Assembly: GCA_002353215.1 (NCBI GenBank)
Contig: DEJD01000058.1
Span: 18,734-24,035 of the forward strand
DNA from: Prevotellaceae bacterium UBA2757
GTDB lineage: Bacteria > Bacteroidota > Bacteroidia > Bacteroidales > Bacteroidaceae
Reading direction: 5' to 3'
DNA length: 5,302 nucleotides
Each line of letters opens with the position of its first letter. Position 1 is the first letter of the stretch. The notes under the pieces are model-generated. The model saw only the letters and a program-made list of their open reading frames with translations, had not been told where the DNA came from and searched no databases. Of this stretch, positions 594-5,302 are shown one piece after another. Made by a program: the position numbers and the translations under genes.

Positions 594-620
594 AACTTCT
601 AACTCCTAACTCCTAACTCC
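594..620. repeat. Heptamer array (AACTCCT)n abutting the rnr start codon
   Basis: Units are AACTTCT (594-600), AACTCCT (601-607), AACTCCT (608-614) and AACTCC (615-620); the next base is the A of the rnr start codon. Read on the minus strand the unit is GGAGTTA, close to the GAGGTTA unit found inside the S9 peptidase gene. The array occupies the whole ribosome-binding region of rnr, so rnr has no Shine-Dalgarno sequence. That is normal for Bacteroidetes. Confidence 0.85.
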
Positions 621-3961: not shown

Positions 3962-4011
3962 ATTAATAATGAAAAATTTCGGGAATTGATAATTGACAAT
4001 TGACAATTGAA
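3962..4011. repeat. Heptamer array (AATTGAC)n with degenerate ATTAAAA-like units
   Basis: The clear part is AATTGAT (3984-3990), AATTGAC (3991-3997), AATTGAC (3998-4004) and AATTGAA (4005-4011). Just before it, ATTAATA (3962-3968) and ATGAAAA (3969-3975) resemble the ATTAAAA/ATGAAAA units found inside the S9 peptidase gene. The two blocks are joined by ATTTCGGG. Two different 7-bp units side by side is the same arrangement as in the coding array at 4731-4805. Confidence 0.7.
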
Positions 4012-4120
4012 AATAAAGAGTTTTTCTGAACACGAATGACTCTTTTGTCTTACAGAAACCACGGATATCACAAAAATGTTTTTTCGCACTGATTTTAGAT
4101 AACAGTCTTGTTGAAAACTG

Positions 4121-4451: not shown

Positions 4452-5302
4452 ATGAAATTTCTTAGAAGGTTTATGTATGTGGGGGCGCTGATGGCGCTGA
4501 CTACTGGTTCTCCTGCTATGGCTGTCACAGCGGAGGGAACATCGCAAATTACAAGTTGTATGGAAGAATCAAGTTTTAAAAGACAGGAGGTTGTCGTCAA
4601 GGATGGACTGATGACTCCCGAAGTTCTGTGGGCTATGGGACGCGTAGGCAGTTATGCTGCTTCGCCCAACGGTAAGTATGTGGCTTATCAGGTGGATTAT
4701 TATAGTGTGGAGGAGAACAAAAGCTTTAAAGAGGTTAGAGTTGAGAGGTTAGCGGTTAGCGGTGAGGAGAGGGGAAAATTAAAAATTAAAAATGAAAAAT
4801 TAAAAGTGGAGGGGACGGAGCCGGCATGGCTGGATGAGGAGACTGTGGCTTTCGTGCATGAGGGTGAGATATGGGCGATGAAGACGGACGGTAGCGGTCT
4901 GAGGCAGTTGTCGAGGACCGGAGGTAAGGTAGAGGGGTTTAAGTTTTCCCCGGACAGGAGGGCTGTGATTATCGTGAGAGCTGTGCCGTTCGATGAGGTG
5001 ATTGAGGCTAAGCCGGATGATCTGCCGAAGACGACAGGACTGGTGGTGAAGGATCTGATGTACCGACACTGGGATCATTATGTGGAGAGTATTCAACACC
5101 CATTTATATATAATGTAGGTGAGGGATGGACGGTTGAGGAGACTGGAAAGGATATCTTAGAGGGAGAACCGTATGAGTGTCCGATGGAACCGTTCGGCGG
5201 CATAGAACAACTAGACTGGAGTCCCGATTCGAAGGCTGTGGCTTATACTTGCAGGAAGAAGACTGGACTGGAGTATTCGATTTCGACGGATTCGGATATC
5301 TA
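4452..5302 (+). CDS. Secreted S9-family serine peptidase (DPP5/prolyl oligopeptidase-like), N-terminal part
   Basis: Open from the ATG at 4452 to the end of the window: 283 codons and two bases, no stop. The first 24 residues form a Sec signal peptide: Lys2, Arg5 and Arg6, a hydrophobic stretch from 7 to about 18, and a likely cut after Ala-Met-Ala (22-24). Thus it should act in the periplasm, trimming dipeptides or short peptides. The mature part shows the start of a beta-propeller: TPEVLWAMGRVGSYAASPNG, YQVDYYSVEENKSF, then repeated blade motifs such as EIWAMKTDGSGLRQLS, GFKFSPDRR and LDWSPDSKAVAYT. The segment DLMYRHWDHYVESIQHPF is typical of Bacteroidetes DPP5-like enzymes. The alpha/beta-hydrolase domain with the Ser-Asp-His triad lies beyond the window. 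Residues 94-118 are encoded by two heptamer arrays (4731-4805). The coding strand is G-rich, unlike rnr. No Shine-Dalgarno is seen; the leader is A-rich. The family call is strong and the exact subfamily less so. Confidence 0.9.
   Translation, partial: MKFLRRFMYVGALMALTTGSPAMAVTAEGTSQITSCMEESSFKRQEVVVKDGLMTPEVLWAMGRVGSYAASPNGKYVAYQVDYYSVEENKSFKEVRVERLAVSGEERGKLKIKNEKLKVEGTEPAWLDEETVAFVHEGEIWAMKTDGSGLRQLSRTGGKVEGFKFSPDRRAVIIVRAVPFDEVIEAKPDDLPKTTGLVVKDLMYRHWDHYVESIQHPFIYNVGEGWTVEETGKDILEGEPYECPMEPFGGIEQLDWSPDSKAVAYTCRKKTGLEYSISTDSDI
4731..4765. repeat. Heptamer array (GAGGTTA)n inside the S9 peptidase gene
   Basis: Five units without gaps: GAGGTTA (4731-4737), GAGTTGA (4738-4744), GAGGTTA (4745-4751), GCGGTTA (4752-4758) and GCGGTGA (4759-4765). 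Because 7 is not a multiple of 3, each copy is read in a different frame, and the encoded peptide is not itself repetitive. The differing copies 2 and 5 both remove a TAG that a GGTTA copy would have produced in frame. Confidence 0.8.
4778..4805. repeat. Heptamer array (ATTAAAA)4 inside the S9 peptidase gene
   Basis: Four units without gaps: ATTAAAA (4778-4784), ATTAAAA (4785-4791), ATGAAAA (4792-4798) and ATTAAAA (4799-4805). The single mismatch, G at 4794, turns what would be TAA into GAA in the reading frame. The array is separated from the GAGGTTA array by 12 purine-rich bases. Together they encode a Lys/Glu-rich stretch in the first propeller blade. Confidence 0.85.

Follow-up and report, generated by a model that had tools for sequence, protein, structure and literature searches.

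The 5' part of an S9 family peptidase gene was found to hold an in-frame block of degenerate heptamer repeats, and other repeats occupy this position in proteins nearly identical to its product, an indication that spacer DNA is being turned into protein loops. The gene lies at the end of the window, the whole stretch of 5,302 nucleotides that was analysed, and the overall reading that we consider probable is that heptamer arrays land in genes, where the copies in tolerant loops with an open frame survive.

The repeat block and its host gene

The window looks like DNA of Prevotellaceae type from its sequence, and its gene order (M13 peptidase, RNase R, ComF-like protein and S9 peptidase) is syntenic with that of the closest locus, L001 (metagenome-assembled genome UBA2448), whose S9 protein shows 91% amino-acid identity over 165 residues after the block. 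The product of the gene between RNase R and the S9 peptidase, which we take to be ComF-like, gave only a sub-threshold zinc-ribbon match in Pfam. The features of the window that are discussed below are as follows.

594..620, + strand: AACTCCT heptamer array, non-coding, ending directly before the RNase R start codon at 621
3969..3975, + strand: ATGAAAA unit, non-coding, a stop-avoiding variant between genes
3984..4014, + strand: AATTGAC heptamer array, non-coding, upstream of the S9 gene
4452..5302, + strand: S9 family peptidase gene, 5' part, with the ORF open at the window end and a signal-like N-terminus by eye
4731..4765, + strand: heptamer array of GAGGTTA/GCGGTTA type, 5 units, first half of the in-frame insertion at site 1
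4766..4777, + strand: purine link GGAGAGGGGAAA, 12 bases, counted by eye
4778..4805, + strand: heptamer array of ATTAAAA type, 4 units, second half of the in-frame insertion at site 1

The block 4731-4805 covers codons 94-118 of the ORF from 4452 (75 bp, 25 codons, in frame) and reads EVRVERLAVSGEERGKLKIKNEKLK, with a shift of 2 in unit phase across the purine link by a count by eye. TRF reported GGTTAGC x2.4 at 4747-4763 and AAAATTA x4.4 at 4775-4805. At lag 7 the two highest scores of the ORF were 18 and 12, which neither the codon permutations nor the synonymous redraws reached in a single case (0 of 5000 each); the 7-bp periodicity of the block is far beyond chance. The GAGGTTA-type and ATTAAAA-type arrays with a 12-base purine link, which had been claimed for this gene from the sequence alone, are present by TRF and by both of these nulls.

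A protein search with the L001 protein as query gave ten close proteins (P0001-P0010) among the best 120 of 7997 scored candidates, and from window residue 8 onward, where the two overlap, the window protein shows zero differences from P0009, of which P0008 is a near-twin. Membership of the S9 family was given by PF00326 (Peptidase_S9, prolyl oligopeptidase catalytic domain), which matches P0008 at residues 544-759 with an E of 6e-52. The gene part at 4452..5302 encodes beta-propeller and the catalytic domain lies past the window end; the window stops before the PF00326 domain, and its own ORFs gave no family match at E 0.001 for the S9 part. There was likewise no match at E 0.001 between PDB sequences and the 283 S9 residues of the window, no Rfam match in the window at the gathering threshold, and no inverted repeat of at least 8 bases in 4700-4830. 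The peptidase is probably exported.

The AlphaFold2 model of P0008 (57 sequences, mean pLDDT 73.6) has its best folds among S9 peptidases (8wt1, 5yzn/6ikg and 4hxg) and places a strand at residues 83-92, followed by residues 96-109 at pLDDT below 50; the region of a second loop, site 2, is of low confidence as well. In this model the first half of the array seems to supply the edge of the strand, and the remainder a floppy loop.

Different repeats at the same site in orthologues and near-identical proteins

The related loci were represented by the best 80 of 445 found, and the window's block was seen, by eye, in none of these 80. The usual orthologue segment at site 1, again as a summary by eye of the 80 loci, is NKS.QVLY.MNADGSGQQLLTTSAKNETDPAWL. 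Site 1 of L001 encodes the peptide NKKQSMVVVEDPPKSSLNREDLRMQVEGTEP, the underlying DNA of which is the palindrome TCCTCCCTgaacAGGGAGGA, and site 2 of that protein contains a related peptide as well. This palindrome pattern, with 2-12 bases between its arms, occurs at four places in G001, the closest genome (1.13 Mb of it analysed), including site 1 of L001 and MetH, and at none in G002. At the same S9 turn, the rumen Prevotella loci L029, L051 and L080 encode SPLPTSP(Q/K)GGG from a C-run/G-run palindrome, located at L029:5247, L051:5938 and L080:5938. The alignment of S9 orthologues, proposed earlier as a check, returned the block as missing or different, the near-identical proteins described below differ by whole arrays, including a step of 63 bp, and the outcome that was to speak against an insertion, namely orthologues with diverged DNA and the same amino acids, was looked for among them and not seen. 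An old protein segment with a 7-bp period by chance deserves virtually no credence: a plausible strand is encoded (the model strand at 83-92), but the scores were reached in 0 of 5000 draws in both nulls and the block is absent from the orthologues.

Outside the two loops, P0002, P0003, P0004, P0005 and P0007 are identical to P0008 at 692-694 of 700 positions and the shorter record P0006 at 672 of 679 (98.9-99.1% for the six against the window haplotype), and the site-1 array differs in all six. Its length is 34 aa in P0002-P0007, except for 13 aa in P0005; the sequence is KKQSLLFISGSKFQVSGSKTQLSTFNFQLSTSKFQ in P0002, P0003 and P0006, with small changes in P0004 and P0007, KKQSLLFISGSKFQ in P0005, and SFKEVRVERLAVSGEERGKLKIKNEKLK in P0008 and P0009. 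P0001, the record nearest to L001, is 89.8% identical to P0008 outside the loops and shares with L001 a palindrome-derived peptide at site 1. Judged from this one protein, P0002-P0009 appear to come from strains of one species. Site 2 (P0008 residues 378-403) reads KDERLAVSGERLERLKIKNEELKIKN in P0008 and P0009, with close variants in P0002, P0003, P0005, P0006 and P0007, and GGVRSEELGVRSEELAL in P0004; in P0010 hardly any sequence stands at this site.

In the window haplotype the second loop (ERLAVSGE...LKIKNE) is similar to the block peptide. The site-2 DNA of L001 holds a palindrome-like stretch and AGGTTAGCGGTGAGGGGTGAGAGGTTAGCG, and the exact matches that this L001 stretch shares with the block region of the window are at most 14 bases long. 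Since the site-2 peptide is kept in three haplotypes and AGGTTAGCGGTGAGGGGTGAGAGGTTAGCG stands in the same phase in L001, site 2 would be the older of the two, and it may have been the donor for site 1 of the window haplotype, the likeness of the sites there being one of peptides.

Growth in place by replication slippage from a short loop seed, with point changes keeping the frame and nothing entering from outside, is a rather unlikely alternative for these arrays. The site-1 arrays of P0002 and P0005 differ in length by 21 aa, that is 63 bp or 9 heptamers, as slippage or recombination within the array would give; a slippage origin has been put forward for heptanucleotide repeats (Mrazek et al. 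2007, as cited in PMC4679880), and the rarity of the stop-avoiding GGTGAG outside ORFs (see below) would suit slippage with point changes. Against this stand the compound structure of the block with its phase shift of 2, the similar compound peptide in the second loop of the gene, and the fact that near-identical proteins hold an unrelated array at this position. That the differing loops were produced by mixing in metagenome assembly is improbable in the extreme, for although no isolate is given for P0001-P0010 in the source lines and L001 and L002 are metagenome-assembled, the window haplotype is found in two separate records, P0008 and P0009, whose longest contigs measure 47.7 and 70.4 kb, and four others (P0002, P0003, P0006 and P0007) share the P0002-type loop pair, all of these being in frame.

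Period-7 arrays between and within genes

Short tandem arrays in the 914 kb of the 80 loci are dominated by period 7 (67 arrays, vs 0-25 for the other periods from 4 to 12), and in the 1,128,446 bases of G001 a score of at least 13 was reached by 151 period-7 arrays vs 1-23 arrays for periods 5, 6 and 8-11, with 0 period-7 arrays after G001 had been shuffled in 50-bp windows. Their density is 134 per Mb in G001, 34 per Mb in G002 (13 in 381 kb) and 73 per Mb in the 78 other loci. At score 12, the 173 arrays of G001 are made up of 114 intergenic, 49 ORF-edge and 10 in-ORF arrays, the last being at least 60 bases from either ORF end by a simple ORF and codon-score method. The genome-wide search suggested by the sequence-only reading thus showed intergenic period-7 arrays of many unit types to be frequent in relatives. 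The exact compound, GGTTAG followed within 30 bp by a pair of exact ATTAAAA units (ATTAAAAATTAAAAAT), occurs in only 1 of 301 family genomes; the idea of a single mobile cassette family was therefore rejected, and no intergenic donor was found by the pattern used. Four consecutive GGTTAGN units occur in 6 of 121 family genomes and the reversed control in 0. The AACTCCT array that abuts the RNase R ATG at 621 is shorter in L001, with about two units at the same place, and a 12-bp tandem repeat, AACGAAAACCAA, at 572-595 of the window spans the M13 peptidase stop codon.

Four of the 10 in-ORF arrays of G001 were compared with relatives (M3 peptidase, IleRS, MetH and epimerase, with gene identities by Pfam); three of the 10 are presumably not insertions, namely a native GH97 segment, a native UDP-glucose dehydrogenase segment and an N-terminal extension. 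The M3 peptidase (L165:2630-4726) has extra residues around NENYSQQLTAKSQKPENVV that are absent from G002 (94% identical), G040 and G014, and G011 has another, shorter insertion nearby; P0241, identical at 684 of 694 positions, carries a different insert and P0242 a longer loop, and the loop is short in 29 of the 31 proteins parsed among the first 34 of 120 listed. The IleRS of G001 (L142:940-4404) has a loop of AACTCTC heptamers plus a palindrome, with a shorter loop in G002 and a palindrome in G040. MetH of G001 (L132:17743-20000 and its continuation) has a palindrome insertion that is absent from G002, and in its linker GGTTCAT heptamers stand where G002 has other sequence, while the epimerase of G001 has heptamers where G002 has a different, longer loop.

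The IleRS loop, located before WTTTPWTLP, is highly variable, with 49 different peptides among the 119 proteins parsed of 120 listed close relatives, some of them read from heptamers or palindromes in the DNA. Peptide motifs picked post hoc classed 41 of these 119 as heptamer-like and 41 as palindrome-like, in a listing ranked by likeness to a repeat-bearing query, and these two counts are given no weight here. In the wider family, 16 loops were parsed of 34 loci; most of these showed no repeat, while period 7 was seen in 1 and inverted repeats in 2, and these three loops belong to close relatives. The controls gave 0 (period 7) and 25 (inverted repeats) of 776 windows, so that the two inverted-repeat loops among 16 are not beyond what a small sample may give. 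The in-gene repeats were therefore seen mostly in close relatives rather than family-wide.

The products of IleRS and MetH are, we assume, usually cytosolic, and that genes of this cytosolic type are affected too argues against antigenic variation as the main reason. A further reading is a contingency locus, in which the gain or loss of one 7-bp unit would shift the frame and switch the peptidase off or on. Seven is no multiple of three, and the array length varies among near-identical proteins, as such a switch would have it, but fewer than three perfect copies stand in a row (the longest exact lag-7 run is 2.7 copies), the close proteins P0001-P0010 are open, though out-of-frame alleles would go unlisted, and housekeeping genes bear repeat insertions as well, which makes the switch very unlikely.

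A three-phase reading rule for stop-bearing heptamers

Heptamer units cycle through three reading phases because 7 and 3 share no factor. The sequence-only reading had placed the mismatches of the block exactly at would-be stop codons, and a consensus restored one unit at a time gave a stop only at the units 4738, 4759 and 4792, the deciding bases of which (4743, 4764 and 4794) are G in the block and T in the consensus, while the other six units equal the consensus and stay open. Some mismatch lies elsewhere than at a stop, as unit 4738 differs also at 4741. The converse, which goes beyond that reading, is that G or A at 4750, 4780 or 4801 would create a stop, and all three are T. The reading constraints in the block are thus that T is barred at 4743/4764/4794 and both G and A at 4750/4780/4801, with 4736/4757/4787 being free, and all nine block units comply with this three-phase rule. 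The rule is obeyed in any open gene, and therefore the pattern alone is no proof of selection after entry.

With the block left out, G variants over all arrays, wherever placed, were 11 of 36 for GGTGAG and 16 of 52 for AATGAA (about 31% G), and the counts outside ORFs, from the intergenic arrays of G001 and 36 arrays outside ORFs in other loci, were 2 of 19 and 6 of 23. A simple product of frequencies puts the share of such double arrays that are open in any one frame at about 1% with the pooled counts and at about 0.15% with those from outside ORFs. Among single arrays not inside ORFs, 81% of the (array, strand, frame) triples are open if the consensus is stop-free and 6% if it is stop-bearing. 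The in-ORF arrays of G001 are stop-free in sense in 9 of 10 cases, vs 114 of 316 array-strands elsewhere (P about 7e-4); the window block, both unit types of which are stop-bearing on both strands, is unusual in comparison with these other in-ORF arrays.

The ATGAAAA unit at 3969-3975, which had been named as a caveat, is indeed present in the non-coding array. The earlier proposal that a repeat entered the gene and was then kept readable stood on the side of entry, with orthologues that lack the block or differ in it and near-identical proteins that differ by whole arrays. As a later repair it fared less well, for G variants occur outside ORFs too, the pattern is forced in an open gene, and a similar peptide lies in the second loop of the gene, so that the array could have been acquired in one piece, already readable. 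The readable pattern is rare outside ORFs, which makes copying from an already readable array, or later change, likelier than a lucky intergenic copy. Mutation after entry may have played a part, above all for the GAGGTTA half, the G variant of which is rare outside ORFs.

Relation to known repeats and proposed origin of the block

The original papers on Rickettsia palindromic elements (RPE) are said to be those of Ogata et al. These elements are dispersed, usually intergenic, and also found in frame within genes, with their exact function given as unknown in PMC1950309. The window block resembles them in being inserted in frame into a conserved gene when compared with orthologues, but the palindromic core of RPE is not in it, as it consists of tandem heptamers with 0 inverted repeats of at least 8 bases in 4700-4830, and, unlike in RPE, one repeat type replaces another at this S9 loop among near-identical proteins. 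The S9-loop palindromes of L001, L029, L051 and L080 are closer to RPE than the block is. By this analogy, the window block is best read as a heptamer counterpart of an in-frame RPE.

The TAACTGA direct repeats of Beggiatoaceae, Cyanobacteria and some Bacteroidetes are, according to PMC4679880, tandem 7-bp units that are mostly intergenic and have stops in all three frames in one orientation; some sets lie within ORFs, and many of these are found at ORF ends or in hypothetical proteins. The heptamer arrays of G001 are similar in being mostly intergenic (114 of 173), and the AACTCCT array at 594-620 is placed like TAACTGA repeats upstream of start codons. The TAACTGA unit itself is not that of the block, where the units are GAGGTTA/GCGGTTA and ATTAAAA, and the clade has many unit types rather than one. 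The arrays here also differ in lying inside conserved enzymes and in varying between near-identical proteins, and the window array has stop-bearing units that a three-unit pattern renders readable. Heptanucleotides are the most abundant class of long simple sequence repeats in most surveyed genomes (Mrazek et al. 2007, as cited in PMC4679880); compared with the long repeats described there, the present arrays are short, degenerate and located in protein loops. Among the matches listed for open-licence PMC literature, by titles and abstract openings, none was on such insertions in Prevotellaceae or Bacteroidales.

The explanation that we propose is that, in this Prevotellaceae clade, heptamer arrays and small G+C-rich palindromes are mainly intergenic and also enter genes, where a copy would persist only in a tolerant surface loop with an open frame through the repeat. 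The window block would be one of these copies, a compound array placed in the loop that follows an early propeller strand of the S9 peptidase. Instead of having formed locally, the site-1 array may be a copy of site 2 that arose by template switching or ectopic gene conversion, and gene conversion between arrays, template switching and slippage are candidate ways for arrays to move more generally. The loop contents would be near neutral, and the T/G pattern would act mainly as a filter on pre-existing variants rather than reflect later mutation, within the limit that the GAGGTTA-type G variant, at 2 of 19 outside ORFs, is rare there, so that a readable array would seldom arise by the filter alone. 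Since full-length protein listings hide frameshifted alleles, the survival of in-frame forms only is partly a sampling effect.

A wider proposal, which we put forward tentatively and regard as possible rather than likely, is that the intergenic pool of heptamers and palindromes serves as a renewable source of loops, with cassettes that overwrite and swap the loops of many enzymes, among them IleRS and MetH, from strain to strain at a higher rate than that at which the remainder of the protein evolves, and with a three-unit (21-bp) rule that makes stop-bearing arrays coding. If true, a class of short strain-specific insertions in Bacteroidales proteins would be translated spacer DNA. The simple reading rule for 7-bp arrays is testable. 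The findings are also a caution against taking loop insertions in Prevotellaceae proteins for adaptations, as they may be repeats. The arrays may catch protein sequence being born from non-coding repeats at near-strain resolution, in conserved enzymes and with its origin still visible in the DNA.
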